A program made the translations under genes and the position numbers. Below, one piece after another: positions 14,307 to 44,289 of a stretch of 64,000 nt of DNA. This stretch comes from Flavobacteriaceae bacterium PS02337. GTDB taxonomy: Bacteria; Bacteroidota; Bacteroidia; Flavobacteriales; Flavobacteriaceae. Every line of letters starts with the position of its first letter. The stretch's first letter is position 1. The notes under the pieces were generated by a model. It saw only the letters and a list, made by a program, of their open reading frames with translations. It was not told the origin of the DNA and ran no database searches. The DNA lies in NCBI GenBank assembly GCA_029959285.1, contig JASCOE010000007.1:62001-126000 (forward strand), in the 5' to 3' direction.

Positions 14307-14375
14307 TAGCCCTGATCGAAGCGGTATCCTTTGCTTTTTTTCTTTAAAAAAGCAAAGATATAGCGGAGAGCAGGA
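14307..14375 (-). repeat. 69-bp dispersed inverted-repeat element, copy 1
   Basis: This imperfectly palindromic 69-base element matches, in opposite orientation, the 69-base element at 38520-38588. Both have the ends TCCTGCTnTCCGCT and ATCAGGGCTA and a variable A/T-rich centre. Equal length, separate loci and intergenic position mark it as a dispersed REP-like repeat. Confidence 0.75.
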
Positions 14376-14448
14376 ACCATGAATCCAAAAATGCCAAATG
14401 CCTTTGCTTCTAAAAAAAAAATTAAACATTGACAAAAAATATTCAAAA

Positions 14449-27933: not shown

Positions 27934-28800
27934 TTAGTTTTCTACGCTGCTAACAGAAAACATTCCGCTAATATCGCTTGAACCATTTCCTCCTAAATTA
28001 TCTACAAATTTCATCATCTGGGTCGCAGTGTGAATGTTTGGAGTTGCATTATCATCATTTCCTGTTCCAGTTGACAATGTAATCGTATTTGATTTTCCGC
28101 TTAATAGTTTATCAAAATCAGCCTTAATTTTGATTTTTGGTGCCTTACTTCCAACAATTGCGTTTGTAGTTAAGTTTAAAGTAATATCTCTGTAAGCATT
28201 TACGCCTTGAGCATCAGCTCCATCTTTTTTTGTAATAGTACTTCCAGTATGAATAGACATAGTTTTATTATCAGTACCATAAAAACCTTCCACTTTTGTA
28301 AAACGGTAACCACTTCCCCATTCCCACATCATTTGTGTGTCGTTTGCGCCCGCAGCCGCATAAAAAACTGGAAATCTTACTTGGTCTAAAGTATTTTGTT
28401 CTGGTTTAATTCCCAAACCAAATTTAATCTGCTTGTAAGTTGCAGACGGAATATTGCTTAAAACATAACTCAAAGAAGCTGTTTTAGACTGATCGATTAC
28501 AGCCGCGCCTTTATCTAAATCATTTACATTATAAGGAACTTCAGTTCCGTTGTCTTTAACCAAACGAATATTACTAATAACATACTTCAATTCTGAAAAA
28601 TGATGAACTTGCCCAGCCGCTGAAGTGTTTGCAGTTGCTGAAGCTGCAGTTGCATTTCCAAGAACAATCGTATTACTTTTAAATGTATTCGTAAATTCAA
28701 GCGTTACATTGTTCGCAACTGGATTATCATCATCGCTTGAACATGATACGAAAGCCAATGCGGCAACTGATAATAAAAGGTATTTTTTTAAATTTTGCAT
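27934..28800 (-). CDS. mbnP: MbnP-family lipoprotein (copper-binding type)
   Basis: 288 residues with a lipobox (FVSC, Cys20) followed by SSDDD. The sequence matches the MbnP family: LEFTNTFKSNTIVLG at the start of the mature part, HHFSELKYVISNIRLVKDNG, LSNIPSATYKQIKFGLGI and the aromatic motif MMWEWGSGYRFTKVEGFYG. In characterised members a Trp is oxidised by a partner di-haem enzyme and the protein binds copper; the neighbouring MauG-like gene fits this. It is a beta-rich envelope protein. The family call is strong; copper binding here is inferred. Confidence 0.88.
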   Translation of the reverse strand: MQNLKKYLLLSVAALAFVSCSSDDDNPVANNVTLEFTNTFKSNTIVLGNATAASATANTSAAGQVHHFSELKYVISNIRLVKDNGTEVPYNVNDLDKGAAVIDQSKTASLSYVLSNIPSATYKQIKFGLGIKPEQNTLDQVRFPVFYAAAGANDTQMMWEWGSGYRFTKVEGFYGTDNKTMSIHTGSTITKKDGADAQGVNAYRDITLNLTTNAIVGSKAPKIKIKADFDKLLSGKSNTITLSTGTGNDDNATPNIHTATQMMKFVDNLGGNGSSDISGMFSVSSVEN

Positions 28801-28851
28801 TTTGTGATATTTAAATTTTTGTATTCTATTTTATTAATTTAGGGAAATTAA

Positions 28852-29214
28852 TCAGCAAATAGGAGGCGGTACAAAAATTTCTAAACAAGGTTCAAAATGA
28901 TTAAATTCTTTATAAATCAATACTTTATTATTTATCATTTTTAGAATGTGAATGGGAAACTCAAAATTCTGATTCTGAAGGATGTCTATCTTTTTAAAGA
29001 TACTGTTCAACTCCAAATCGTTCTTTTCAGACTTTTCTAATTCTTTCTTTAAATGGCATTTCCCGTGGCATTGCAATTCTGGTTTGGCTTTATTTTCGCA
29101 GAATTCTTTTTCTATATCTTGCTGATTCAGTTTGAAGTGCACAACAATAAGTGCCTGTTGGAAAGAAACCAACAAGAACAAAATCGTCATTGTGAAACTA
29201 AAAACTTTTTTCAT
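28852..29214 (-). CDS. Small exported Cys/His protein of the copper cluster
   Basis: 120 residues. A hydrophobic N-terminus (about 5-25) suggests a signal or anchor. The motif QCHGKCHLKKELE (Cys49, His50, Cys53, His54) looks metal-binding, with an extra Cys39 before it. The C-terminus ends FVPPPIC. It is paralogous to the protein at 32382-32756: both have FK(L/I)NQ at 27-31, and Cys39, Cys49 and Cys53 fall at identical positions. It lies 1 base after the TonB receptor gene, so it belongs to that transcript. A copper-handling role is inferred from the motif and context. Confidence 0.78.
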   Translation of the reverse strand: MKKVFSFTMTILFLLVSFQQALIVVHFKLNQQDIEKEFCENKAKPELQCHGKCHLKKELEKSEKNDLELNSIFKKIDILQNQNFEFPIHILKMINNKVLIYKEFNHFEPCLEIFVPPPIC

Positions 29215-29215
29215 T

Positions 29216-31195
29216 TTATAAAGTGAATTTTAAAGAAGTAAAAATATTACGTCCCATTCTCGGAATATTTCCCCAATCGGCATAAGTGCTGTAATATTCA
29301 TTTAATAAATTCTCTGCACCAACTTGAATTGTTGTATTTATTTTGTTGATTTTGAACGAATAATTGGCAGAAAGATTCCAAATCATGTACGCCGAAGTCA
29401 GATCTTCTCCGTATTCTGGACTGTAATTGATTTGTTCAAAATCGCCATTTACAGAAGTTTGGATTCCGAAATTCTTGTGCATAAAATGAAGCGAAGTCTG
29501 ATAACTCAACGGGCGAATAAAAGGAAGATTTCCACCAAGATTATCCATTCCGCGAGCATACATTAATGTTCCTTTCCAATGCAAATGCTCCAAAATATCG
29601 TAACCTGCATTCACAGAAAAATTCAACAGTGTAGCATAATCTAATGACGTATATCCTTTTACACCAACCGATTGATAATTCATTGGACTTCCCATGCTTA
29701 AAATTCTACCTATAATATAATTCTGGATGTAGAAATAATTTACTTTTCCCTGAAGACTGAATCTTTCGTTTTTAAAACCCGCGCTTGCATTTCCTTCATA
29801 CGAAATTTCATTTTTTAAATTCGGATCTCCAATATAATCGTAGCGATCAAAACTATTATAGATATAATACCCGTAACCTTCAGAAACAGAAGGTGCTCTG
29901 TGACCGTAACCCGCTCCAACAGAAAAATCAAATTGATCAATATTCAACTGATAACCCGCATGAAGATTTGGTAAAAATCTCGTTTTTTCCTGAGGCGCGC
30001 CCGGATGAAAAATCCAGTTGAATTCTACATATTTAGAATAATTGTAATTCACGCCCAAAGAACCACCCAAATTCACCTGACTTTTCTCTGAAATATCCCA
30101 AGAATTATTCATCGAAAGTCCCGCGTAACGTGTTGTTACCCAAGGCCAGCTATACGCAAACATCGTTCTTTTGCTACGATCTTGCGGATACATTCGCATT
30201 TCTGCAATAGATAAATTATCGTACGCATTTAATTGAATTTCAGCAGCATAATTATCCTTTTTCAAATTGGCTTTAGAAACTAAACCGTAAGTCGTGCTCC
30301 AACCCGGCATATCCATATGAACTAGATTTTCGGGACGCGTTGTATCATCCATATAATGTTCGATGGCATTAAAATAGATTTTTGTATCAATCACTTTTAC
30401 CAAGCCATTTTCAAATAATTGCTTGTAAGCAGCCGAAGTTATTAGCGCTCTAGAAAGCGATAAATCCATTGGAAGCGCTGGAAAACCAACATCTTTTGCC
30501 ATATCAAAAATGGCATCGACTCTTACGGCAGATAATTCGCTTGTTTTATAAGCCAAACCAATTGAAGTATTGAATTTTTTATATTGTGAATGTTTTACTT
30601 CATCATCATTTCCGTCGTAATAATTATCGGCTTTTCGGTAAGAAACGCTCCCATCAAAAACAAATTTATTGCTTGAATACGAGACATTTCCAAGATTAAA
30701 AAACTGTTTGTTATTGAATTCAAATCCGCTTTGGTAAGCGCCATTCCATTTTCTTTGAGCGCTAAACGGCGTACTTTTTCGTTTTAAATCAATACTTCCG
30801 GCAACAGTTGCGCCGTGAAGACTTCCCTCCTGACCCGATTTGATATCAATTGCAGCAAGATTATTGCTTTCTACATAAGAAGTTATCGGATCCATTTTAT
30901 CGGTACAAGCGCCAAAAACGTGCATTCCGTCAATTGTAACTGTCGAACGTTCTGTACTCATATTGTTTAATAAAGGTTCCCAAGCGTAAGCACCTCGTTT
31001 TATAAAACTAATATTATCTGAAGAAGATAAAAATTCATCAACAGAAACTGCCATTTTCATTTCGGTTTCAATTTTCTTTTTAGTGGCATTTTTTACGGTT
31101 ACTTCTTCTAAATTTTTGATGCTGTCGTGATGCGCGTGCGGATTTTGAGCGTTTACAGACATTCCCAAAAAAAGCAACATTATAATATATTTCAT
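29216..31195 (-). CDS. TonB-dependent receptor, OprC/NosA-like (probable copper)
   Basis: 659 residues from the ATG at 31193-31195, where a signal peptide (MKYIIMLLFLGMSVNAQ) begins; the longer reading frame to 31270 would overlap the upstream gene and was rejected. The mature start HAHHDS is His-rich. The plug has TVTIDGMHVFGACTDKMDPI, SYVESNNLAAIDIKSGQEG and HGATVAGSIDLKRK, a pattern seen in OprC/NosA-type copper receptors with Cys and Met near the substrate site. A barrel follows, ending FTSLKFTL. It lies between the YtkA-like lipoprotein and the small Cys/His protein. Confidence 0.9.
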   Translation of the reverse strand: MKYIIMLLFLGMSVNAQNPHAHHDSIKNLEEVTVKNATKKKIETEMKMAVSVDEFLSSSDNISFIKRGAYAWEPLLNNMSTERSTVTIDGMHVFGACTDKMDPITSYVESNNLAAIDIKSGQEGSLHGATVAGSIDLKRKSTPFSAQRKWNGAYQSGFEFNNKQFFNLGNVSYSSNKFVFDGSVSYRKADNYYDGNDDEVKHSQYKKFNTSIGLAYKTSELSAVRVDAIFDMAKDVGFPALPMDLSLSRALITSAAYKQLFENGLVKVIDTKIYFNAIEHYMDDTTRPENLVHMDMPGWSTTYGLVSKANLKKDNYAAEIQLNAYDNLSIAEMRMYPQDRSKRTMFAYSWPWVTTRYAGLSMNNSWDISEKSQVNLGGSLGVNYNYSKYVEFNWIFHPGAPQEKTRFLPNLHAGYQLNIDQFDFSVGAGYGHRAPSVSEGYGYYIYNSFDRYDYIGDPNLKNEISYEGNASAGFKNERFSLQGKVNYFYIQNYIIGRILSMGSPMNYQSVGVKGYTSLDYATLLNFSVNAGYDILEHLHWKGTLMYARGMDNLGGNLPFIRPLSYQTSLHFMHKNFGIQTSVNGDFEQINYSPEYGEDLTSAYMIWNLSANYSFKINKINTTIQVGAENLLNEYYSTYADWGNIPRMGRNIFTSLKFTL

Positions 31196-31199
31196 GTTT

Positions 31200-32123
31200 T
31201 TAGAATAAAGTATCAATATAAAGTTCACTTTTAACTCCCTCAACTCCAGGCGTAAAATCGGTTGGAACAACAGTTCCTTTTAAGATCAATCCGTTTTGAT
31301 TCATCATAATTAAATTCAGCGTCCAATTTCCCGTCATCGTATAATTGACAACGCCGTGATACAAACCGTCGTTTTCTTGTACCAAATCTTTATTGTTTGG
31401 CGAAGAGTGATTTCCCATAGAAGGTTCGGGCATTCTCGGATCTAATTTTAAAGTAAAACCCGTTACTTCAGAATACGAAAATTGAGTCGGATCAGGAAAA
31501 GTTCCCGCTGTAGCAGTCGGTTTATTGTATTTATAAATGCCCGCAACTAATTTGTTTTCTGAAACAGTTGGTTTTTGTGGAGAAACCAAAGCGATAAAAT
31601 ACTGCTCGCCATCATTTCCTGTAAATGCAGTCATATTCAGGTTTTTATTGCTTTGTTTTTGAACAGTAATATCTTTATTGATTTCATATTTCTGATTATC
31701 AGCAGTAAAACTCATATACAATTTCCAACTTGCAGTAGTCGTGCTTTCACCAGTAAAAACAGAATATCCAGCGTAATATTTATTTGTAGCATCGTAAGTT
31801 GTTTTATATTCATGCGGGCAAGAACTTTTGCTCCCGTCTGCATTAGTAATTATTGGCAAAAAAGTTACATCAGAAGTATTTACACTTTGATTGGTTTGCG
31901 TATTTAAAACTTTGATATGAAGCTCATTATAACCTTTATAAAATGTTCCGTTTAAAGCGTCAATAGTGATTTTATAATTACCGCTAGTAAACGAAACCGC
32001 TTCTTTAAATTCGTAAGATTCTGGAACTTGAGAGCCTGTTTCTGCTTCGTAATCTGTTTTGTCAATGGTACAAGAAGTGATTGCAAGAAATAATGCAATT
32101 ACTAGAAAATTAAAAGATTTCAT
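31200..32123 (-). CDS. YtkA-like lipoprotein of the copper cluster
   Basis: 307 residues with a lipobox (AITSC, Cys18). Two beta-sandwich-like parts are visible: the first (about 45-150) with YKITIDALNGTFYKGYNELHIKV, the second with PEPSMGNHSSPNNKD and YHGVVNYTMTGNWTLNL, which resembles the YtkA/FixH-like envelope domain. Met and His in this segment (MPEPSMGNH) could bind copper. It is 4 bases upstream of the TonB receptor and is probably a periplasm-facing partner of it. Family assignment is moderate. Confidence 0.78.
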   Translation of the reverse strand: MKSFNFLVIALFLAITSCTIDKTDYEAETGSQVPESYEFKEAVSFTSGNYKITIDALNGTFYKGYNELHIKVLNTQTNQSVNTSDVTFLPIITNADGSKSSCPHEYKTTYDATNKYYAGYSVFTGESTTTASWKLYMSFTADNQKYEINKDITVQKQSNKNLNMTAFTGNDGEQYFIALVSPQKPTVSENKLVAGIYKYNKPTATAGTFPDPTQFSYSEVTGFTLKLDPRMPEPSMGNHSSPNNKDLVQENDGLYHGVVNYTMTGNWTLNLIMMNQNGLILKGTVVPTDFTPGVEGVKSELYIDTLF

Positions 32124-32381
32124 TTGTAATGAATGTTAGAAAACTGTTTAAATTTTAGCAAAAAGCCATATGATTTTTAAAATCAAAACAAGCAAAATGC
32201 CGTGAAATTAGAATATAGTAAGATCAACAGTTTCGGAAATAAAGAAAAAAGTGTTTAAGATTGCGTAAACTCCAATTATGAGTTTATAAATAAGCGCATC
32301 TCACCTTTTAGTGTATGATTTAGCATCATCGAATTATTACGATAAAGCAATTTTATACAAAATTAAAATAGAAACTCTGAT

Positions 32382-32756
32382 CTAGACCAAACAGAGCGGT
32401 GGATGAAAAGTAAGATTAGAAGCCTTAACAGGTTTCTTTTCGAATAAGATAGAAGAATTTTCTTTTGATTCTAAGACAGTAATAATTGAAAATTTAACTT
32501 CAGGAGAATTTTGAACATAAACCAACTCTAATTTTTCTTTTAGAGTGTCTTGTTTTTTCTCATTATCAGCATATTTTTTAATGCTTTTTTGAAGTTCACA
32601 TCGACCGTTACAAGAATTAAAAACAGATTTACGCTGCACACAAATTGTCTGTGCAATTTCTTTCTGGTTTATTTTGAAAGAAGCATAAATGAACAAGCTG
32701 CCAAAAGATGGCGACAAGATTAAAATGGAAAGTACTATGATAAATAATCTTTTCAA
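32382..32756 (-). CDS. Small exported Cys-rich protein, paralogue of the one at 28852
   Basis: 124 residues with a hydrophobic N-terminus (about 4-25). It shares FKINQ at 27-31 and Cys39, Cys49 and Cys53 (NSCNGRCELQ) with the 120-residue protein at 28852-29214, and both end in a Pro-Pro-x-Cys pattern (FHPPLCLV here). The His of the sister motif are replaced by Asn50 and Glu54. It is the first minus-strand gene of the cluster, separated by 258 bases from the next. A TACTTTTG -7-like box lies on the minus strand at 32780-32787. Confidence 0.75.
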   Translation of the reverse strand: MKRLFIIVLSILILSPSFGSLFIYASFKINQKEIAQTICVQRKSVFNSCNGRCELQKSIKKYADNEKKQDTLKEKLELVYVQNSPEVKFSIITVLESKENSSILFEKKPVKASNLTFHPPLCLV

Positions 32757-32940
32757 TTGCTTGAATTATGTTTCGGCAACAAAAGTACACACTATTTTGT
32801 ATTTATTTTAACGAAACGTAAATTTTTTATTCAATAAAAGATGTTTTTATCTTATTTCGTGATGCTGAAATAATTCCCTAAATTATTATCATAAAATTAA
32901 TTCTAATGTCTTTAGATAGGATTATTATTTAACAATACTA

Positions 32941-32973
32941 TTGCATAATTTCAATCTTTCTCCTATAATTTTC
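32941..32973 (+). promoter_or_regulatory. Candidate promoter of the type III PKS operon
   Basis: TTG at 32941-32943 and TAATTTTC at 32966-32973 are 22 bases apart, close to TTG / TAnnTTTG with the last base changed. It lies 49 bases before the first gene of the operon. Confidence 0.4.
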
Positions 32974-33021
32974 GCCAAATTATATAAACAGTATTCCATA
33001 TTTTATAACTAAATTGGTGGT

Positions 33022-34149
33022 ATGGAAAAAAATCCAGATGTACTTATTATTGGCGGTGGTCTTGCTGGTTTGGCAAGCGCTATTCATTTGTCTAGAACTG
33101 GGTTAAAAGTCACCCTTTTAGAAAAAAATGATTACCCCAAACACAAAGTTTGTGGCGAGTACATTTCCAACGAAATTTTACCTTATCTAAAATGGCTTGG
33201 CGCAGATGTATCGGTTCTTGCTCCTTCTCAAATTACCCATTTTGAATTTACAGCACAAAACGGTAAAAGCGCCGAAACTAAACTTCCATTAGGCGGATTT
33301 GGAATCAGCCGATATACTTTAGATCATTTTTTATTTGAAAATGCCATCAAAAATGGATGCATTATTATTAATGAAAATGCCACAGAGATTTCTTTTGAAA
33401 TTGATGCTTTCACAGTAAAAACTTCAGAACAAAGTTTTTCAGCAAAAATAGTTTTGGGTGCATACGGCAAACGTGCCAATATCGATCAGCAATTAGGTAG
33501 AAATTTTTTCGCTAAAAAATCACCTTGGCTGGCTGTAAAAGGACATTATTATGGCGATTTAGATCCTAATTTGGTCGCGATTCATAATTTCGATGGCGGT
33601 TATTGTGGTGTTTCGAAAGTAGAAAACAGCATCATAAACATCTGTTATTTGGCGGATTATGAGACTTTCAAAAATTATAAAAATATAGAAGAATATCAGA
33701 AAGAAGTTCTTTATAAGAATAAAAATCTGAAAACTATTTTTGAAAACAGCACTCCAATTTTTGATAAACCTTTGACTATTAGCCAAATTTCATTCGATAA
33801 AAAACTGCCTGTTGAAAACCACATTTTAATGATTGGAGATACTGCGGGACTTATTCATCCAATGTGTGGCAACGGAATGGCAATGGCGATTCACAGCGCA
33901 AAAATTGCATCAGAATTGATCACTGATTTTTACAACGGAAACATTGTTTCACGCGATGCATTAGAAAAAAAATATGCTGCCGAATGGAAAAAGCAATTTA
34001 GCAAACGTCTTTTTTTCGGAAGAATTTTAGCTAAAGCTCTTACTCACAAAAAACTGACTTCTTTTATAACTATTATCGCGGCATCTTTTCCATCTCTGCT
34101 TTCAACCATAATCAAACAAACGCACGGAAATCCGGTAACCATAAATTAA
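33022..34149 (+). CDS. FAD-dependent oxidoreductase (geranylgeranyl reductase / monooxygenase family)
   Basis: 375 residues. The dinucleotide-binding motif IIGGGLAGLASAIHLSRTG lies at about 9-27, followed by LLEKNDYPKHKVCGEYIS, and the second FAD motif LMIGDTAGLIHPMCGNGM at about 270. This pattern is shared by geranylgeranyl-reductase-like enzymes and flavin monooxygenases. It is the first gene of a compact operon with a methyltransferase and type III PKS. By comparison with the Streptomyces srs operon, where a flavoprotein oxidises the phenolic lipid, it may hydroxylate or oxidise the polyketide. Reduction of a C=C bond is the alternative. Confidence 0.88.
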   Translation: MEKNPDVLIIGGGLAGLASAIHLSRTGLKVTLLEKNDYPKHKVCGEYISNEILPYLKWLGADVSVLAPSQITHFEFTAQNGKSAETKLPLGGFGISRYTLDHFLFENAIKNGCIIINENATEISFEIDAFTVKTSEQSFSAKIVLGAYGKRANIDQQLGRNFFAKKSPWLAVKGHYYGDLDPNLVAIHNFDGGYCGVSKVENSIINICYLADYETFKNYKNIEEYQKEVLYKNKNLKTIFENSTPIFDKPLTISQISFDKKLPVENHILMIGDTAGLIHPMCGNGMAMAIHSAKIASELITDFYNGNIVSRDALEKKYAAEWKKQFSKRLFFGRILAKALTHKKLTSFITIIAASFPSLLSTIIKQTHGNPVTIN

Positions 34150-34863
34150 ATGGCAATAAACACGCAATATAGAACCGAAGAACCTGAAATAATGGATGAT
34201 TTTTCGCTTGAAGGCGAAGAATTAATTCATGCGCTCGATAAAATTGCGGCAATTAACCGATTATTGGGCGGAAACAAACTCACTTTACACGGCATTAAAA
34301 AGCTATTAGAAAAAGTTGATATTTCTAAAACTATTACAATTGCTGATATCGGTTGTGGCAACGGCGATATGTTGAGAATGCTCGCAGAATATGGCAAAAA
34401 ACAAGGAATTAATTTCCAATTAATTGGTATTGACGCAAACGCTTTTACGATAAATTACGCCAAAGAACTTTCTAAAAATTTCAAAAATATTGATTATTTG
34501 TGTTTGGATATTTTTAGTAAAGAATTTCGTGATTTAAAATACGACATTGCATTGTGTACATTGACATTGCACCATTTTTCTAACGAAGAAATAGAAAATA
34601 TGCTCGATTTGCTCAATCAAAATGCTTCGATCGGAATTGTGGTCAATGATCTTCATCGCAGTAAATTGGCGTATCGCCTTTTTGAAGGAGTTTGCTATGT
34701 TTTCAATCTCAATAAAATGTCAAAAAATGACGGTTTGGTTTCTATTTTAAGAGGATTTAAAAAGAGCGAATTGGTACATTTTTCTAAAAAATTAAATTTA
34801 AATAACTATTCCATCAACTGGAAATGGGCTTTTCGCTACCAGTGGATAATTTCTAAAATATGA
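34150..34863 (+). CDS. Class I SAM-dependent methyltransferase
   Basis: 237 residues with motif I ADIGCGNGDMLRMLA (about 65-79), an acidic end of strand 2 (LIGIDAN), and the LCTLTLHHFSNEEIENML segment typical of small-molecule C- or O-methyltransferases. It starts immediately after the stop codon of the flavoprotein gene and its stop overlaps the start of the PKS gene. It probably methylates the PKS product; SrsB and BpsB are methyltransferases paired with type III PKS in other bacteria. The target atom cannot be predicted. Confidence 0.9.
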   Translation: MAINTQYRTEEPEIMDDFSLEGEELIHALDKIAAINRLLGGNKLTLHGIKKLLEKVDISKTITIADIGCGNGDMLRMLAEYGKKQGINFQLIGIDANAFTINYAKELSKNFKNIDYLCLDIFSKEFRDLKYDIALCTLTLHHFSNEEIENMLDLLNQNASIGIVVNDLHRSKLAYRLFEGVCYVFNLNKMSKNDGLVSILRGFKKSELVHFSKKLNLNNYSINWKWAFRYQWIISKI

Positions 34864-35912
34864 GTGTAAAGATTATAACAGCTACAAAACAGCTTCCGCA
34901 ATATTCCCGTTCAACCGAAGACATTCTGCCGCTTTTAGATGTTTGGCTGGAAGGACAAGAAGAACGTTTTATCAAAAAAGTAAAGAAGATTTTTGAAGGC
35001 GCATCGGTAGACAAACGTTATTCGATTATGGAACCTTCGGAGGTTTTTACCGCTACTTCTTTTGAAGAAAAAAATGATATTTACAGCAGAGAAATGATCG
35101 TTCTAGGACATCAGGTTTTAGAAAAAGCGCTTCAAAAAGCCAATTGGGATCCGCAGAGTTTGGATTATATTATCACGGTAAGTTGCACCGGAATTATGAT
35201 TCCGTCTTTAGACGCGTATCTCATCAATAAAATGAAATTACGTCAAGATATTGTGCGTCTGCCCGTTACCGAAATGGGTTGTGCGGCAGGTATTTCTGGA
35301 ATTATTTATGCGAAAAACTTTCTGAAATCAAATCCTGGGAAGCGTGCGGCCGTAATTGCAGTAGAATCACCAACAGCTACTTTTCAGCTCGATGATTTTT
35401 CGATGCCGAATATTGTCAGCGCGGCCATTTTTGGAGATGGAGCCGCTTGTTGCTTATTATCTTCGGATGAAAAAGACGAAGGTCCAGAAATTATAGACGA
35501 ACAAATGTACCATTTTTACGATGCCGAACATATGATGGGTTTTAAACTCACGAACGGCGGACTTCAAATGGTTCTGGATATTGAAGTTCCCGATACGATT
35601 GCATCTCATTTTGGCGATATTATTCATCCCTTTTTAAAACAGAATAATCTTGAAATTAAAGATGTTGATCACATGATTTTTCATCCAGGAGGAAAAAAAA
35701 TTGTAAATACGGTCGAAGAACTTTTCTCAGGATTGAATAAAAATATAGACGACACAAAAGAAATTCTAAAACAATACGGAAATATGTCTAGCGCGACAGT
35801 TTTGTATGTTTTAGAAAGCATTATGGACCGAAAACCTAAAAAAGGAGAAAAAGGTTTAATGTTAAGTTTTGGTCCTGGATTTTCAGCCCAACGCGTTTTA
35901 TTACAATGGTAA
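34860..35912 (+). CDS. Type III polyketide synthase (chalcone/stilbene synthase family)
   Basis: 350 residues, the usual size for a homodimeric type III PKS. The Cys-His-Asn triad is in place: Cys141 (TEMGCAAG), His275 (MIFHPGG) and Asn308 (YGNMSSAT), with the GFGPG-type loop as SFGPGFS near the C-terminus. It should condense malonyl-CoA with an acyl starter, giving alkylpyrones or alkylresorcinols. The dedicated ketosynthase, dehydratase and ACP genes that follow suggest that the starter is a special fatty acyl chain made in the same operon. The start ATG overlaps the methyltransferase stop. Confidence 0.95.
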   Translation: MSVKIITATKQLPQYSRSTEDILPLLDVWLEGQEERFIKKVKKIFEGASVDKRYSIMEPSEVFTATSFEEKNDIYSREMIVLGHQVLEKALQKANWDPQSLDYIITVSCTGIMIPSLDAYLINKMKLRQDIVRLPVTEMGCAAGISGIIYAKNFLKSNPGKRAAVIAVESPTATFQLDDFSMPNIVSAAIFGDGAACCLLSSDEKDEGPEIIDEQMYHFYDAEHMMGFKLTNGGLQMVLDIEVPDTIASHFGDIIHPFLKQNNLEIKDVDHMIFHPGGKKIVNTVEELFSGLNKNIDDTKEILKQYGNMSSATVLYVLESIMDRKPKKGEKGLMLSFGPGFSAQRVLLQW

Positions 35913-35922
35913 TTTTAGAATT

Positions 35923-36360
35923 ATGGAATTAAACGATATTATAAAACAGCTTCCGTACAGCGAACCTTTTTTGTTTGTAGATGAATTACTTTATGCGGAT
36001 GAAAATGGTATAACGGGAACGTATACTTTTAAAGAAAATCTAGATTTTTATAAAGGTCATTTTAAAAATAATCCAGTTACGCCCGGCGTTATCTTAACAG
36101 AAACAATGGCACAAATCGGAATGGTTTGTTTGGGTATTTTTTTGTTGAATAATGACTTGCAAAGCGATACAGTAATTGCTTTTACATCAGCCGATATGGA
36201 GTTTTTAAAACCTGTTTATCCGAATGAAAAAGTAACCGTAACTTCAGAAAAAATGTTTTTCCGTTTTGGAAAATTAAAATGTAGTGCGGTAATGAAAAAT
36301 GAAGCGGGACAAGAAGTTTGCAGAGGTATTTTAGCTGGAATGATAACCAAAAGATTATGA
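35923..36360 (+). CDS. 3-hydroxyacyl-ACP dehydratase, FabZ-like (hot-dog fold)
   Basis: 145 residues from the ATG at 35923; the in-frame start at 35869 lies inside the PKS gene and was not used. The hot-dog active-site pattern FYKGHFKNNPVTPGVILTE has the catalytic His and Glu spaced as in FabZ (GHFPxxPxxPGVxxxE). It would dehydrate 3-hydroxyacyl-ACP in the cytoplasm. Gap to the PKS gene is 10 bases and its stop overlaps the next start (ATGA). It probably works with the adjacent ketosynthase and ACP on the starter chain. Confidence 0.88.
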   Translation: MELNDIIKQLPYSEPFLFVDELLYADENGITGTYTFKENLDFYKGHFKNNPVTPGVILTETMAQIGMVCLGIFLLNNDLQSDTVIAFTSADMEFLKPVYPNEKVTVTSEKMFFRFGKLKCSAVMKNEAGQEVCRGILAGMITKRL

Positions 36361-37625
36361 AGAAACGAGTCGTAATAACTGGTCTTGGAATCGCTGCACC
36401 AAACGGCGTCGGAATTCCTGAATTTACAGATGCCATTAAAAACGGTATTTCTGGAATTCGTCATGATGCACAGTTAGCAGAACTACAGTTTTCTTGCCAG
36501 ATTGCGGGTCAGCCACAGATTTATGATGAACTTAAATCGCAATATTTTACCGAACTCGAACTCCGCGGATTCAATAGCACAGGAATTCTATACGGCGTAA
36601 TTGCAGGATTAGAAGCTTGGAAAAATGCAGGATTGTCCATAAATGAAACTCCCGATTGGGACAGCGGAACCATTTTCGGAGCTGGAACTTCTGGAATTGA
36701 AAAATTTCGCGAAAGCATTTATAAAATTGATGATTTGCAAACTCGAAGATTAGGAAGCACGGTTGTCGCACAAACCATGAACAGCGGAGTGAGCGCTTAT
36801 TTAGGTGGTAAAATCGGACTTGGAAATCAGGTTACTACAAATTCATCTGCTTGCACAACGGGAACTGAAGCTATTTTAATGGCGTACGATCGCATACAAT
36901 CTGGACAAGCAAAACGAATTTTGGCAGGAAGCACTTCAGACAGCGGTCCGTATATTTGGGCGGGGTTTGATGCACTTCGCGTTTGTTCTTCCAAATACAA
37001 TGAAAATCCAGAAGAAGGTTCAAGACCTATGAGCGCTTCAGCTTGCGGTTTTGTTCCAGGAAGTGGTGCTGGTGCTTTAGTAATTGAAGATTTGGAAAGT
37101 GCTTTAGAACGAAATGCTGTAATCTATGCCGAAATATTGGGCGGAAATGTCAATTCTGGCGGACAACGCGACGGCGGAAGTATGACAGCTCCAAATAGTA
37201 TTGCCGTTCAAAAATGTATTAAAGATGCCATTTTGAATGCCAATATAAACCCAAATGAAATTGATGCCATCAACGGTCATCTTACGGCAACTACAAAAGA
37301 TAGTCTAGAAATTGAAAATTGGACGAAAGCTTTAGAAAGAAATGGCGCTGATTTTCCGTACATTAATTCTTTAAAAAGCTTAACTGGACATTGTTTAAGC
37401 GCTTCGGGAAGTATTGAAAGTGTGGCTTCTGTTTTACAGCTTCACGAAGGCTTTTTATTCGGAAATCTAAATTCTTCCGACCTTCATCCTGAAATTGCAG
37501 CGCTTATTGATTCATCAAAAGTGCTTCCGAAAACAATAAATACCAATCCTAAAATAATCGCAAAAGCCAGTTTTGGTTTTGGCGATGTAAATGCCTGTAT
37601 ACTATTTAAAAAATTCGAAAAATAA
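36357..37625 (+). CDS. Beta-ketoacyl-ACP synthase (KAS II-like)
   Basis: 422 residues from the ATG at 36357; the in-frame start at 36318 lies inside the dehydratase gene. The thiolase-fold condensing enzyme has Cys166 in TNSSACTTGTEA, His308 in AINGHLTATTKDSLE, Lys340 in NSLKSLTGH and His345, which is the complete KAS I/II set. It elongates acyl-ACP by decarboxylative condensation with malonyl-ACP. It is separate from a housekeeping fatty-acid cluster, and is thus likely devoted to this pathway. No ketoreductase or enoyl reductase is nearby. Confidence 0.92.
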   Translation: MKKRVVITGLGIAAPNGVGIPEFTDAIKNGISGIRHDAQLAELQFSCQIAGQPQIYDELKSQYFTELELRGFNSTGILYGVIAGLEAWKNAGLSINETPDWDSGTIFGAGTSGIEKFRESIYKIDDLQTRRLGSTVVAQTMNSGVSAYLGGKIGLGNQVTTNSSACTTGTEAILMAYDRIQSGQAKRILAGSTSDSGPYIWAGFDALRVCSSKYNENPEEGSRPMSASACGFVPGSGAGALVIEDLESALERNAVIYAEILGGNVNSGGQRDGGSMTAPNSIAVQKCIKDAILNANINPNEIDAINGHLTATTKDSLEIENWTKALERNGADFPYINSLKSLTGHCLSASGSIESVASVLQLHEGFLFGNLNSSDLHPEIAALIDSSKVLPKTINTNPKIIAKASFGFGDVNACILFKKFEK

Positions 37626-37626
37626 C

Positions 37627-37881
37627 ATGAACAGAACAGAAATTACAGAAAAACTAAAAGAGATCATTAAACCGTACGCAGCTAATACAGAAGCACACGA
37701 AAATCTAACCGAAGAAACCGATTTCATCAAAGATTTAAATATCAATTCGGCGAATCTTGTGGATATTGTATTGGATATTGAAGAAAAATTTGATGTCGTA
37801 ATCGACAACGCCGACATGGAAAGAATGCTCGATGTAAAGACCGCAATTGAAATTATCGAAACCAAACTTGCAGCAAAATGA
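37627..37881 (+). CDS. Acyl carrier protein
   Basis: 84 residues from the ATG at 37627. The phosphopantetheine site is Ser41 in DLNINSANLVDIV, reading NSA where most ACPs have DSL; helix 2 and the acidic helix (IVLDIEEKFDVVID) are otherwise typical. It lies 1 base after the ketosynthase stop and overlaps the start of a phosphopantetheinyl transferase gene, its probable activating enzyme. It carries the chain built by the neighbouring condensing enzyme and dehydratase. Confidence 0.88.
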   Translation: MNRTEITEKLKEIIKPYAANTEAHENLTEETDFIKDLNINSANLVDIVLDIEEKFDVVIDNADMERMLDVKTAIEIIETKLAAK

Positions 37882-38375
37882 TAGGCAACGATATTGTAGA
37901 TCTTGCGCAATCTCGGCTAGAAAGCAGATGGTCGCGCAAAGGTTTAATTGAGAAGCTTTTTACTCCACAAGAACAACAGCTTATAAGAAATTACCATGAT
38001 CCAGAAATTATGGTATGGCTGCTTTGGAGCATGAAAGAAGCCGCCTATAAAATCTACAATAGACAAACTAAAATAAGAGAATTCAGTCCTCAAAAATTAA
38101 AATGCAATTTGATTTCTATAAATGCTATCGAAGCATTTGGCGAAGTTTCATGCCTTCAAAATAAATATTACACCCAAACTATCATTTCTACAGAAAACAT
38201 TCATTCTATCGCGACAAATACTTTAGAAAACCTCAACAATGTCATAGAAATCGAAAAAAAGGGAATTATCAAAGACAAATTCGGTATTCCTTATTTAACA
38301 ACTTCTACAATAACTTTTAAAAACGTTTCGATTAGTAATCATGGCCGTTTTGAAAAGGTTGTGACTTATAAATAA
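37878..38375 (+). CDS. 4'-phosphopantetheinyl transferase
   Basis: 165 residues. The metal and CoA-binding motifs of the superfamily are visible: MIGNDIVDLAQ at the N-terminus and WSMKEAAYKI (about 53-62). It transfers phosphopantetheine from CoA to the ACP Ser. Its start overlaps the ACP stop codon (ATGA), which points strongly to that ACP as its substrate. It is the last gene of the operon and is followed by a long hairpin. Confidence 0.9.
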   Translation: MIGNDIVDLAQSRLESRWSRKGLIEKLFTPQEQQLIRNYHDPEIMVWLLWSMKEAAYKIYNRQTKIREFSPQKLKCNLISINAIEAFGEVSCLQNKYYTQTIISTENIHSIATNTLENLNNVIEIEKKGIIKDKFGIPYLTTSTITFKNVSISNHGRFEKVVTYK

Positions 38376-38729: not shown

Positions 38730-39218
38730 ATGAGTGGAAAAGTTGTAGTCGTTCAAGGAGCAAAACTAAAATGCAAATTCAACGTTGAGCAAAATACGGA
38801 TGTTTTAAAGGTTAAAACACATGATAAACATTTTGCAAATGATAAAAATTCAGAAAGCAAGCTTATAGGAACCACAAAAGAGACAGGTCAAACACTGGAG
38901 AAAAATACTTTTGGAAAATGCAAATTGAAACCAGACGGAAAAGGCGATTATCTTCCTTGCCAAACTGTAATTACAGAATGGACTGAATATTATGAAAACA
39001 TCACTTTAAGCAATCAAGGAAAAATACTTATTGAAACAAGCAAAGCAGGTTGTTCAACTGGAGGAGCCGAATGTATCTCTGTAGCTCATCATGGACAAAT
39101 TATCGAAATCAGCAAAAAGAGTGTTATGAATGCCTCAGTGCTTTTACACAACCAGATAAATCCTTTGATTGATATGAGAGAATTACAAAATGCCATCGTT
39201 GACGATGATATACTTTAA
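38730..39218 (+). CDS. PAAR-like protein (DUF4280)
   Basis: 162 residues, starting MSGKVVVVQGAKLKCKF. It has the DUF4280 pattern: N-terminal VVQGA-x-L-x-C, GKCKLKPDGKGDYLPCQ, and GCSTGGAECISVAHHGQ, with a repeated small beta-rich layout and five or so Cys. DUF4280 proteins are PAAR-like tip proteins associated with the Bacteroidota type VI secretion system (subtype iii) or other contractile devices. It is 12 bases upstream of a peptidoglycan hydrolase that should be its cargo. No other secretion component is present in the window. Confidence 0.82.
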   Translation: MSGKVVVVQGAKLKCKFNVEQNTDVLKVKTHDKHFANDKNSESKLIGTTKETGQTLEKNTFGKCKLKPDGKGDYLPCQTVITEWTEYYENITLSNQGKILIETSKAGCSTGGAECISVAHHGQIIEISKKSVMNASVLLHNQINPLIDMRELQNAIVDDDIL

Positions 39219-39230
39219 AAATATAACAAC

Positions 39231-41495
39231 ATGCCAGATTTTAAAATTATTGGAAATCCAAGCCCTACAGTTGGAGAACAGCAGACTTATTCAATACAAG
39301 AAAATCTTACTTTAAATATTCCCGTAAGAGATTTATCTTCTGAAAAAACAAATCCTTTTTCGCAAGATATTCATTGGTCAATTTATCAGTTAATAAATAA
39401 TAAATGGATACTTAAGCCAAAAAATAATAAAACAGGTTCTGTAGTAAATTTCAACTTCTTTCAAGCAACTTTAAAATACGAAGGAATAAAATTAATTGCC
39501 AAACGTGGTAATGACGAAGCAATTCTTTACATCAAAACACAAAAAAGTATTGAGCGAAAAATTGTTCATGTTGATTTTTTAGATGAAAACTGGAATAAGC
39601 CCACTAGACCGTTTACATATGGAGAGAAACTGATAGCACGAGTACACTGTGTTAATCTAAACAAATGTGCTGGATCTGTCACTTTGTGGGAAGATGATGC
39701 GCCTGGTTCTGGGCATAGTATTATCAACAAAAATAACAAAGTCATTACTCTCCCTATTTTTATTGAAGAAGGAAAAGCAGAAGCTAAGTTCTTTCTAGCT
39801 CCAGATTTTGCTAAAATCGCAAACAGTCAAGTAGCTAACGGCGATAAAGATGAAGGAGAGTTTCACGAATACTATGTTACTGTTGAAATATTCAACCAAA
39901 AAACTTTTGAAAGCCAGAACGTAAATGTCAAAAATCCTGAGTACGAAAAACAACAAAGTCCTGCCGAAAAGAAAGGAACATCACAAAAAGAAACTAAAGG
40001 AATAAAATCTGAAGAAAAAATCTATGATTATCTCGAACAAAAAATTGTCGTAAAACCAGATCCTTCATTCAATCCTATAATGGAAAAGTACGATAGTATA
40101 TTTAAAGTTGATGTTGGAGATTCTATTTGGAATAGGAAGAATGGCACATGCGCCTGTAAAGAAAATAATTTCTACTGGAGCAGCAAATTAACTTGCGACG
40201 AACGAAAAAAAGTGCTTGAAGTATGCTCGAAACTTTGGGGAGAAGATAAAAAGAAAGATAAAGCAAGCGAATTAATGGCAATCATGCATCTAGAAACGGG
40301 TGAAAAAAACATTTTTAAACCTTATGCAGATAATGGGGCTGACTATTCTGGTTTAATACAATTTAGTGATGATTCAGCCAAAAAATTAGGCACTACAAGA
40401 GCTGAGCTAAAGAAGATGACTTTTATAAAACAAATGAATTATGTTCATGATTATTTTGCTTCAAAGAAAGAAATCTCAAACATAGTAGACTTGTATTTAC
40501 ATGTTTTAAAACCTAATGCGGTAGGAAATGGAAACAATCCTGATTATGTTCTCTTTGATGAAAGCATTTCGGTCCCAGATGGTGACGGAAGCCAAACAAG
40601 TCTTGAACAGCGAAAAATAAATATTGGCAGAGAACCTTGGGTAACGAAATACGGTTATTCTTCAAATCCTTCCTTTATGAAAGGGGAAGAGCACACACAA
40701 AGAAAGAAATGGGTCTACACCAAACAACGTTTTGAAGACCGTTGGGGATTTATAAACGGAAAAACCACTGTTGCTGATGTGATGTTAGAATTAAAGGAAA
40801 TGCATTTTAATCCTGGAGCAAAATATTTATTTACTGGTGTTTGTGAGAATATTGAAGAAGAAAATGATAACACAAGTGATAGAGCACCTTGGATGGAAGT
40901 AGTTGTTAATGAAGCTAAAATTTATGGTGGTAAAAAACAAAATTTAATACAAGATAGAATAACAATGTATCATAAAGAAGGTGCTAGCTATCTAGGTAAA
41001 AAAGATGCCTGGTGTTCATCATTTGCATGCTGGTGTCTTGAAAATAGCAATCCTAATTATCCTTCACCCCATTCACCAGGATCTAGATCATTTATTAATA
41101 ATAAAAACGTTGAAAAATGTGAAGTATTTTACGGTGCAATAGCTACATTTTCTGATTGTAATAAAAACGGTATTGTTGAAAGTTCAGGACATGTAACTTT
41201 TGTTTATGGAAAAATAAATGGCACAGATAATTATGCTGTGCTAGGAGGAAACCAAAATAATATGATTAAAGTTTCATCGTATGATTGCAGTGGAAACGTT
41301 TTCCACAGTCATTATAGTGCAAAGAAAAAAAGGGACGTATATAAAAAATTTATGGGGTTTTTCAAGCCTAAGGGATATGAAATAAAAACAACTGAAAAAT
41401 TAACGGCATCAGATATGTATTCAAATCCTGACGAAGCAAATAAAGCAATAGGATTAAGTTCAATTAAAACTGTTAAAGGGGAGAAAGATGATTAA
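39231..41495 (+). CDS. Bifunctional peptidoglycan hydrolase effector (lysozyme-like plus TIGR02594/CHAP-like)
   Basis: 754 residues without a signal peptide, consistent with delivery by a PAAR-like tip. The N-terminal part (1-230) is beta-rich and Ig-like. A charged linker (about 235-265) leads to a lysozyme-like region (about 300-470) with IMHLETGEKN (candidate catalytic Glu355) and DYSGLIQFSDDSA, which resembles transglycosylase GLxQ motifs. The third part (about 552-710) matches TIGR02594: APWMEVVVNEA, DAWCSSFACWC (Cys595), SGHVTFVYG (His654) and AVLGGNQ. It would cut both glycan and peptide parts of peptidoglycan. The next gene overlaps its end by 8 bases. Confidence 0.82.
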   Translation: MPDFKIIGNPSPTVGEQQTYSIQENLTLNIPVRDLSSEKTNPFSQDIHWSIYQLINNKWILKPKNNKTGSVVNFNFFQATLKYEGIKLIAKRGNDEAILYIKTQKSIERKIVHVDFLDENWNKPTRPFTYGEKLIARVHCVNLNKCAGSVTLWEDDAPGSGHSIINKNNKVITLPIFIEEGKAEAKFFLAPDFAKIANSQVANGDKDEGEFHEYYVTVEIFNQKTFESQNVNVKNPEYEKQQSPAEKKGTSQKETKGIKSEEKIYDYLEQKIVVKPDPSFNPIMEKYDSIFKVDVGDSIWNRKNGTCACKENNFYWSSKLTCDERKKVLEVCSKLWGEDKKKDKASELMAIMHLETGEKNIFKPYADNGADYSGLIQFSDDSAKKLGTTRAELKKMTFIKQMNYVHDYFASKKEISNIVDLYLHVLKPNAVGNGNNPDYVLFDESISVPDGDGSQTSLEQRKINIGREPWVTKYGYSSNPSFMKGEEHTQRKKWVYTKQRFEDRWGFINGKTTVADVMLELKEMHFNPGAKYLFTGVCENIEEENDNTSDRAPWMEVVVNEAKIYGGKKQNLIQDRITMYHKEGASYLGKKDAWCSSFACWCLENSNPNYPSPHSPGSRSFINNKNVEKCEVFYGAIATFSDCNKNGIVESSGHVTFVYGKINGTDNYAVLGGNQNNMIKVSSYDCSGNVFHSHYSAKKKRDVYKKFMGFFKPKGYEIKTTEKLTASDMYSNPDEANKAIGLSSIKTVKGEKDD

Positions 41496-42672
41496 AAATG
41501 AAAAAATTAAATTAACAAAAATAGGAATATTAATTTTTGCTTTGATTTATAGCTGTGCTAAAAAAAAAGAAGAAAATATTCAAAGTGATAATAAAACAAA
41601 TAACGAGACTATGTTTTATAATGATAATAACGATAAAATAAAATCAATTTTAATAAAGCAGGTTAGTTCTGGAAGTGATGCAGTTTATGGCAGTTTTCAA
41701 GATTATAACAAAGATGATCTAGATGCCCTAGTTATAGTTGTGCAATCCATTTTGAAATCAAGTGGATACAAAATAGTAGATAACAAGAATTTTAATGATA
41801 TTATAAAAAAAGTATTTGGAAGAATAATTGATGATCATTCCATAAATGAATATTTAAAGATTGAAACATTTGCTGAGAATAAATGCGATAAAAGTTTGCA
41901 GTACTACCCTTATACTGCTGATGCACAATACTTATATGTCGTAAAAGGTAAATTCATTACTAACTTTTACCCTCTTCCAACAATAATTGATTATTTAAAA
42001 CTGTTTCCTGATGTTTCAAAATTTGAAAAAGAGGATATCATTATTGAAGATAAGATAGAGAATGTAAAAACAAAAGCTTCTCAATGGAAAGATGATTTAC
42101 AATATTTAGCTCAAACAAGAGAAAAAAATATTCAAATATTGATAAACCGAAACAAATATCTTTTCAACGACAACAAAGCAAGTTTGGTATGGCTAAAATT
42201 TAACGACGAATATTTTTTAGAATCACTTGTAAAAGTTTTCGGATACGTTCAAGATAAAGATTTATTAAAGTGGGTTTTAGACAGAAATCTTGATGATGAA
42301 GAATTTGATAAATTGCTGTTTACCAAAACTTGCGATAACAAATACATTTTTCATAAAGAGATTTTTGAAGTCATGACGAAAGCAGACGAAAGAACCAAAG
42401 AAAAATATATAATGTATTTGAGAGCAAAAACAGAACTACCAAAAGTTGATGATGCTAATTTTAATGAGACAGCAAAAATCTATGCACTCTATTGTTATTA
42501 TGCAACAAAATTTACACAAAGTATTGAACAAGGTGATGTTTATACCTTTTTTCCAAAATTAAACGAAAAAAAGTACGAAGAAGAATTTAAAAAAAACAAC
42601 TACTACAACATTCCTGATTTTAAAAAATTATTTGAAGATACTAAAAATGGCGGTATTGGTTTGCCTATGTAA
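41488..42672 (+). CDS. Lipoprotein, probable immunity protein to the hydrolase effector
   Basis: 394 residues. A lipobox (LIYSC, Cys23) followed by KKKEEN predicts a lipid-anchored envelope protein. The rest is hydrophilic and mainly helical, with no enzyme motif that I recognise. Its start codon lies inside the last codons of the effector gene (8-base overlap), a typical effector-immunity arrangement. The periplasm is the place where a peptidoglycan hydrolase must be blocked, which fits. Two segments (about 30-210 and 215-394) might be separate domains. A strong terminator follows. Confidence 0.75.
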   Translation: MIKNEKIKLTKIGILIFALIYSCAKKKEENIQSDNKTNNETMFYNDNNDKIKSILIKQVSSGSDAVYGSFQDYNKDDLDALVIVVQSILKSSGYKIVDNKNFNDIIKKVFGRIIDDHSINEYLKIETFAENKCDKSLQYYPYTADAQYLYVVKGKFITNFYPLPTIIDYLKLFPDVSKFEKEDIIIEDKIENVKTKASQWKDDLQYLAQTREKNIQILINRNKYLFNDNKASLVWLKFNDEYFLESLVKVFGYVQDKDLLKWVLDRNLDDEEFDKLLFTKTCDNKYIFHKEIFEVMTKADERTKEKYIMYLRAKTELPKVDDANFNETAKIYALYCYYATKFTQSIEQGDVYTFFPKLNEKKYEEEFKKNNYYNIPDFKKLFEDTKNGGIGLPM

Positions 42673-43545: not shown

Positions 43546-44289
43546 TTAAGCCAAAACCATTCCTCCATCCATAATGAAGTCAGCACCAGTAATAAAAACT
43601 GCGGCTTCACTGCTTAAATACGAAACCATTTTAGCTACATCTTCTGGTTTTCCCATTTGTTTTAATGGAATTTTATCAACCACAACATCCATAATTCCTT
43701 TTACGGTTGATACGTCTAAACCTACTTTTTTCATGACTTCCGTTTCTGTTGGACCCGGACTAACCGAATTGACTCTTATTTTTCTTGGCGCTAACTCTAC
43801 TGCAGCCGATTTCATAACCGAATTTAAAGCTGTTTTACTCGAAGAATAAACCGAAGATCCAGGACCAGGCATACTTGCAGTATTAGACGAAAGAAACACA
43901 ACCGAAGCTTCATCGTTCAGAATTGGAATAAATTTGCTCAATGTAAAATAAGCGCCTTTTAAATTGACATTCATAATAGAATCATATAACTCTTCTGAAG
44001 TTTGTTCAATTGTTCCTAAGCCTGCGATTCCTGCATTAACAAACAAAATATCTACCGAACCAAAATCTGTTTTTACTTGATTTGCCAGTTTTTCAATATC
44101 CGAAACATTCGATTGATCGGCTACAATTGCAGTAACTCCCAATTCTAAAGCCGCTTTTTCTATCGCTTCTTTTCTTCTTCCGGTGATAATAACATTTGCG
44201 CCTTGTTCTTTCAATTGTTTGGCTGTAGCATATCCTATTCCGCTATTTCCTCCAGTTATAACTGCTGTTTTATTTTTTAAATTGTCCAT
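43546..44289 (-). CDS. Short-chain dehydrogenase/reductase
   Basis: 247-residue classical SDR. The NAD(P) motif GGNSGIGYATA is at about 13-23, with GRRKEA suggesting NADP preference. The catalytic Ser region is FLSSNTAS and YSSSKTAL gives the Tyr-x3-Lys. The C-terminal VFITGADFIMDGGMV is standard. The promoter region on the minus strand has a TACCTTTG -7 box (44316-44323) and the 19-bp element 44333-44351, shared with the HxlR-type regulator gene at 48644. It is probably regulated by that protein. Substrate unknown. Confidence 0.93.
   Translation of the reverse strand: MDNLKNKTAVITGGNSGIGYATAKQLKEQGANVIITGRRKEAIEKAALELGVTAIVADQSNVSDIEKLANQVKTDFGSVDILFVNAGIAGLGTIEQTSEELYDSIMNVNLKGAYFTLSKFIPILNDEASVVFLSSNTASMPGPGSSVYSSSKTALNSVMKSAAVELAPRKIRVNSVSPGPTETEVMKKVGLDVSTVKGIMDVVVDKIPLKQMGKPEDVAKMVSYLSSEAAVFITGADFIMDGGMVLA

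Follow-up and report, generated by a model that had tools for sequence, protein, structure and literature searches.

The subject of this study is a seven-gene operon in a 64,000-nucleotide stretch of DNA from Flavobacteriaceae bacterium PS02337 (contig JASCOE010000007.1, positions 62,001 to 126,000 of the forward strand), hereafter the window, which is part of a genome of 5.7 Mb. Its seven open reading frames (ORFs) follow one another on the plus strand of the window at 33022-38375 (Table 1), in the order flavin adenine dinucleotide (FAD)-dependent oxidoreductase, methyltransferase (MT), type III polyketide synthase (PKS), dehydratase (DH), ketosynthase (KS), acyl carrier protein (ACP), and 4'-phosphopantetheinyl transferase (PPTase). 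With the chosen ATG start codons, consecutive genes are separated by 0, -4, 10, -4, 1, and -4 bases, which bears out the original prediction, made from the letters alone, of seven overlapping or nearly touching genes. For DH (ATG at 35923), KS (ATG at 36357), and ACP (ATG at 37627, or possibly 37591), the likely start differs from that of the ORF. The G+C content of the operon is 0.358, compared with 0.337 for the window.

Table 1. Genes of the type III PKS operon (positions in the window) and their Pfam support
Gene product	Position	Strand	Pfam support	Remark
FAD-dependent oxidoreductase (geranylgeranyl-reductase/flavin monooxygenase superfamily)	33022..34149	+	FAD_binding_3, above cut-off	
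S-adenosylmethionine-dependent MT, PRK06202-like	34150..34863	+	Methyltransf_25, above cut-off	
Type III PKS	34860..35912	+	Chal_sti_synt N and C, above cut-off	
FabZ-like 3-hydroxyacyl-ACP dehydratase (DH)	35923..36360	+	FabA, 47.6 bits, above cut-off	ORF from 35869
FabF/FabB-like ketosynthase (KS)	36357..37625	+	ketoacyl-synt N and C, above cut-off	
ACP	37627..37881	+	PP-binding, 21.2 bits (cut-off 20.8)	INSANLVD around the carrier serine; alternative start 37591
4'-Phosphopantetheinyl transferase, AcpS-like (PPTase)	37878..38375	+	ACPS, 49.6 bits, above cut-off	

The family names proposed beforehand agree with the Pfam and NCBIfam matches for all seven genes, several NCBIfam names being those of the best model below its cut-off. 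This is the case for the FAD enzyme (TIGR02032, 115.8 bits, cut-off 158.8), for the MT (NF004851, 125.6 bits, cut-off 243), and for the ACP, where all ACP models score under their cut-offs. The PKS belongs to the chalcone-synthase family and carries the Cys-His-Asn triad, as a type III PKS should, and its nearest sequence in the PDB is Pks11 of Mycobacterium tuberculosis (4jao, 180.3 bits). Two more specific identities were rejected: DpgA is the best NCBIfam model but reaches 171.9 bits against a cut-off of 425, and the DarB model NF053539 gives 24.8 bits against a cut-off of 550.

The gene order FAD-MT-PKS-DH-KS-ACP-PPTase, in some loci with a short-chain dehydrogenase/reductase (SDR) gene between PKS and DH, recurs across 111 loci of this PKS clade and is therefore far beyond chance. 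The 111 loci comprise the window, L052-L131, L132-L149, and 12 of L208-L220, with the short loci L001-L051 left out, so that presence of the PKS is mostly by construction. FAD enzyme and MT are present in all 111, DH, KS, and ACP each in 110, PPTase in 105, and the SDR in 14. The single locus that misses DH, KS, and ACP (L119) lies on a contig that ends after the PKS. Likewise, the catalytic residues are conserved throughout. Cys141, His275, and Asn308 of the PKS, named in advance as its triad, are invariant in an alignment of 31 sequences, and all three triad motifs were found in 111/111 type III PKS loci. In the alignment columns, the Cys-His-His of KS, the His and Glu of DH, and the carrier Ser of ACP are kept in 123/123 loci and the D, E, and K of PPTase in 114/114, counts that include 13 loci of other contexts without this PKS. 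Strict motif patterns had undercounted these residues (KS Cys, 63/123; KS second His, 110/123; DH His, 113/123; PPTase GxDIV, 44/114) and were replaced by the alignment columns, in which the KS, DH, and PPTase residues are present in all.

We consider it probable that the DH-KS-ACP-PPTase cassette builds an acyl-ACP from which the PKS forms a ring, with the MT and the FAD enzyme, which we take to be tailoring enzymes, acting on that ring. The operon PPTase presumably activates the operon ACP, on which the cassette would elongate the acyl chain; FabG, FabD, and the initiation enzymes would be shared with primary fatty-acid synthesis. Enoyl reduction would be carried out by a FabL-like enoyl reductase (ER) in many relatives and presumably by the housekeeping FabI in this strain. 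The type III PKS would then take the acyl group from the cassette ACP, add malonyl units, and cyclize the chain to an alkyl-aromatic (resorcinol-type) or pyrone lipid, which the MT would methylate and the FAD enzyme probably oxidize. Gene content, gene order, conservation of catalytic residues, co-occurrence, co-inheritance, and the position of a related cassette beside DarB were computed here; we infer the hand-over of the acyl group from ACP to PKS, the type of chain and ring, the sequence of the tailoring steps, and the activities of all the enzymes.

Co-occurrence and co-inheritance speak for a dedicated set of starter-chain enzymes, as originally proposed. Among 395 genomes of the phylum, 33 (including that of PS02337) encode the PKS at 66 to 100% identity, with the next value at 36% or less among the matches listed. 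KS at 60% identity or more was likewise found in 33/395, and these are the identical 33 genomes. Five more genomes of this set have a KS at 48 to 53% identity without this PKS clade. Over 41 loci, the distances between PKS sequences correlate with those between KS sequences (rho of 0.73; the highest of 999 permutations was 0.31), a correlation to which shared ancestry contributes. Possibly, the ACP/KS/DH/PPTase set serves some other lipid pathway and only shares the transcript, so that the PKS uses acyl-CoA or a housekeeping acyl-ACP. Pks11, the best PDB relative of the PKS, uses acyl-CoA starters, in line with such an arrangement. It is an alkylpyrone synthase (PMC6274091), and DH-KS-ACP sets do exist without a ring-forming enzyme, next to genes of the GNAT and GT2 families (L176-L178) or alone (L214). 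The identity of the PKS and KS genome sets, the presence of KS in 110/111 PKS loci with the only miss at a contig end, and a KS tree that splits by partner (see below) all argue against this explanation, which we judge improbable. Supply of the starter by the cassette, in contrast, appears well supported by comparative genomics.

The closest named relatives of the PKS are from Flavobacterium, with F. chungbukense first at 98%, among the 80 named loci that were taken as the best of 308 relative-encoding stretches (394 pattern matches across the 84,980 species of the collection searched) and hence represent close relatives only; from this match, PS02337 is probably a Flavobacterium. F. johnsoniae CI04 (L098) has all seven genes. 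In a sample of 40 genomes, one of them that of PS02337, PKS at 78% identity or more occurred in 14/24 genomes of the same genus and in 0/15 from other families of the order. Two loci of a family from another order (L217 and L218, family f17) fall inside a 15-row clade of the PKS tree (starred) that further contains 11 rows of the window and named Flavobacterium and Myroides loci and 2 rows of the same genus. The KS tree, too, puts them with these rows, and the remaining f17 rows form sister groups. Since both trees place these two loci with Flavobacterium rows, transfer of the whole operon between families is suggested, on the basis of quick trees with many weak forks. The upstream neighbor genes common to some other genera (L143-L149) seem unrelated, as judged by eye without a family scan.

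The lack of a ketoreductase (KR) or ER among the seven window genes, as predicted, was confirmed. The operon is not "self-contained," however, as it had been called: it also contains no gene for malonyl transfer or initiation, and the ER is found within the operon of other genera. Of the 14 loci with the SDR between PKS and DH, 13 come from other genera and one from F. cyanobacteriorum (L131); among the 80 named loci it was detected only in L131, L119 ending before its place. FabL (PRK08063) is the best NCBIfam model for this SDR in 4/4 scanned loci (136 to 160 bits) and in one further scanned locus (122 bits), all under the cut-off of 328, and its nearest PDB relative is FabL of Bacillus subtilis (3oic, 95.7 bits; the next scores 74.2). 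The Y-x6-K spacing that marks enoyl reductases is present in 16/16 SDRs examined, 13 from type III PKS loci plus those of L174, L175, and L177 (the L219 copy was left out). On the 41-row PKS tree, presence or absence of the SDR changes 6 times. A tblastn search for remnants between PKS and DH in 29 spacers of more than 100 bases gave matches only in the 13 with an intact gene and in 0/16 of the others. Given these changes and the absence of remnants from the 16 spacers, the ER looks like an optional part that was lost or gained several times, and where it is absent a housekeeping enzyme presumably stands in. A search for a copy elsewhere in the genome of PS02337 gave 22 matches to SDRs, none above 30% identity. 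No ketoreductase was noticed between the FAD enzyme and PPTase among the labeled genes, neighbors having been labeled by BLAST only. Weak SDR matches (23 to 30%) lie outside the operon in L072, L082, L094, L133, L135, L217, and the window, here as an SDR gene at 43546-44289 on the opposite strand, 5 kb downstream of the operon. The ketoreductase could be among these.

The missing ER also bears on a reversed flow, in which a DpgA-like PKS would make a small aromatic acid from malonyl-CoA; after loading of this acid onto the ACP, KS and DH would extend it to an aryl-alkyl or aryl-polyene chain. An operon without ER, as in this strain, would suit a polyene, and DpgA is the best NCBIfam model for the PKS. 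We nonetheless regard this route as quite unlikely: the DpgA score is far under its cut-off, no CoA ligase or loading enzyme is encoded among the seven genes, and 14/111 loci include a FabL-like reductase in the operon. An esterification of the cassette acyl group to the type III PKS product, rather than its incorporation, is slightly more doubtful still, flexirubins offering a parallel as polyene acid esters of a dialkylresorcinol (PMC3992019) but the seven genes including no acyltransferase.

To return to the supply of acyl-ACP to the PKS, the cassette was also found in other company. Among the loci opened, 13 have a cassette but not this PKS: the cassette is beside DarB in 9, beside other lipid-like genes in 3, and alone in 1. 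In the nine DarB loci (L174, L175, and L201-L207), a related ER-DH-KS-ACP set adjoins DarB, with PPTase in 8/9. In L174 and L175, an SDR-DH-KS-ACP-PPTase set is divergently oriented near DarB, the latter scoring 614.7 and 634.8 bits, over the NCBIfam cut-off of 550. Identity to the window proteins is 45 to 46% for DH, 52% for KS, 42 to 44% for ACP, and 25 to 38% for PPTase, and the SDR is 45 to 48% identical to that of a relative. KS of the cassette type was found in 106/250 genomes of the order to which L174 and L175 belong, and 20 of these loci were newly opened, 3 more being in the set already. In genus g45, 7/7 opened loci have a DarA-like gene and DarB (79 to 89% to that of L175) adjoining the cassette; in g43 and g32, 12/13 have the FAD-MT-PKS triad, L214 being the one without. 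The genome of PS02337 itself encodes a DarB (676 bits), which lies on a different contig from the operon and is accompanied there by separate KS and ACP-like genes. In the KS tree, the 9 DarB rows group with a support of 100 and the type III PKS rows plus L214 with 99, with 3 context changes in all. Because the cassette stands beside two unrelated resorcinol-type systems, it appears as an acyl supplier would, although this is guilt by association and not proof.

In a third context (L176-L178), DH-KS-ACP occur with neither DarB nor this PKS, and with an SDR in L177. Pfam supports GNAT neighbors in L176 and L177 and a GT2 neighbor in L177, the rest being labeled by eye or from weak models; these loci possibly encode an N-acyl or glycolipid pathway. 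They belong to family f38, outside the class of the window, and an SPT/BioF-like gene lies nearby in L177. In the 16 kb opened, L214 contains a DH-KS-ACP-PPTase set of the type III PKS-linked clade and no FAD-MT-PKS triad, which may have been lost recently. Conversely, type III PKS loci of other clades occur without the cassette (L179, L150, L151, and the plasmid loci L221 and L222). In L179 (3030-6839), from the same-genus genome G016, a distant type III PKS (27%) is accompanied by an MT, a FAD enzyme, and a UbiA prenyltransferase and may make a prenylated alkylresorcinol.

Several observations weigh against the explanation preferred here. The distribution of the operon is patchy, and the counts are not independent events, since the loci are relatives gathered through their similarity in PKS or KS. 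PPTase was undetected in five type III PKS loci that extend past the ACP (L144 and L146-L149), where another PPTase may serve the ACP. Four of the 13 loci that have a cassette but not this PKS also are without DarB (L176-L178 and L214). The cassette is thus not linked to ring formation in every locus, and the third context points to a more general role. The gene before DarB, which we take to be DarA from its place, has no NCBIfam match in L174 and L175. Finally, the PKS could still take acyl-CoA.

A broader proposal, on which we are close to evenly divided with a slight lean to the skeptical side, is that a portable type II cassette (FabL-like ER, FabZ-like DH, FabF-like KS, INSANLVD-type ACP, and PPTase) was plugged once each into two unrelated ring-forming systems of Bacteroidota, the type III PKS-MT-FAD and DarB systems, as the KS tree has it, that it hands custom acyl-ACPs to both, and that the type III PKS version moved whole between families of the class. 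If so, this would be the discrete-enzyme counterpart of ArsA of Azotobacter (see below) and would show that starter supply is interchangeable in nature. Such a dedicated, exchangeable, ACP-based supply would explain how the side chain of a ring lipid is fixed. The operon makes ACP-to-type III PKS transfer testable in a tractable genus, given the complete gene set of F. johnsoniae CI04, and the cassette would be available as a finished module for the construction of alkylresorcinols with a selected type of chain.

Around the operon, the Bacteroidota promoter consensus (TTG/TAnnTTTG) has no match at 32701-33100. Divergently upstream, a group on the minus strand (27934-32756) encodes an MbnP protein (Pfam, 123.9 bits), a YtkA-like protein (30.9 bits), a 684-residue protein that is TonB-receptor-like by eye (no Pfam match), and two small Cys-containing proteins, which together we assume to be perhaps a copper locus. 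Downstream, the non-coding segment 38490-38620 is a dispersed repeat found at 24 places in the genome, itself included, at 74 to 100% identity, with a partial copy at 14307-14376 of the window; it had no match in the 29 PKS-DH spacers searched for ER remnants and hence does not fill the long ones. It is followed at 38730-42672 by a DUF4280 gene (61.3 bits), whose product we take to be PAAR-like, and genes for proteins of 754 and 394 residues without a Pfam match.

In the open-access literature, most subscription journals being outside it, no paper was recognized as dealing with this operon, and no product. Type III PKS clusters have been counted in Flavobacteriaceae, in the excerpts at hand without a product (PMC7440613, PMC10734526, PMC9323603, PMC7477175), and make up 9% and 10.7% of flavobacterial biosynthetic clusters in two surveys (PMC7440613, PMC10734526). 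Koreenceine (PMC6498172), considered as a Flavobacterium type III PKS match, is the product of a Pseudomonas type II system and irrelevant here. Polyketide quinones serve as electron carriers in actinobacteria, according to an abstract (PMC9927152).

Two known systems have parts in common with the operon. The loci L150, L151, L221, and L222, which we take to be of the srs/bps type, pair a type III PKS with an MT as in the window, but this is a membrane MT of the ICMT family and there is no fatty-acid synthase (FAS) cassette. In dialkylresorcinol/flexirubin systems, a related cassette adjoins DarB, which is not a type III PKS; dialkylresorcinols are condensation products of two fatty-acid intermediates (PMC3949708).

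A third comparator is the MT-oxidoreductase-type III PKS core of hidABC (hierridin) in cyanobacteria and of a planctomycetal operon (PMC8086630, PMC10896814). In these reports, planctomycetal PKSs made pentadecyl- and heptadecylresorcinols, and one MT-FAD pair, when co-expressed, brought about a single methylation, the role of the FAD enzyme staying open. The same three enzymes are found together in the window operon. Its order, however, is FAD-MT-PKS rather than MT-oxidoreductase-PKS (a hidC-first order has also been reported [PMC8086630]), the Hid system being compared by description and not by sequence, and four acyl-supply genes follow, or five where the ER is present. By analogy with these characterized operons, a methylated, oxidized alkylresorcinol, pyrone, or quinone would be a plausible product.

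Transfer of acyl groups from ACP to a type III PKS has precedents in CylI (PMC8086630) and in germicidin synthase, which takes hexanoyl-ACP (PMC6274091). A complete system, which the original prediction had implied to be lacking, exists in Azotobacter vinelandii, where arsABCD couples a dedicated FAS and a PPTase to type III PKSs (PMC4824345, PMC6274091). ArsA is the FAS (C23 to C25 acids), ArsD the PPTase, and ArsB and ArsC are the type III PKSs (PMC4824345), with acyl groups moving directly from ArsA to ArsB and ArsC, for which a ring-type residue is described (PMC6274091). Both operons unite a dedicated FAS and a dedicated PPTase with type III PKS genes, that of Azotobacter making alkylresorcinol and alkylpyrone cyst lipids. 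ArsA is a type I FAS, a single protein, whereas the window operon has discrete KS, DH, and ACP (and ER in relatives), and MT and FAD genes are added, as compared by description and not with the ArsB and ArsC sequences. Thus, as read here, the operon resembles the ars system in its way of working but falls outside it because its FAS is made of discrete proteins. A dedicated FAS coupled to a type III PKS is already known from arsABCD; what is new is the supply cassette of type II, in a portable form.

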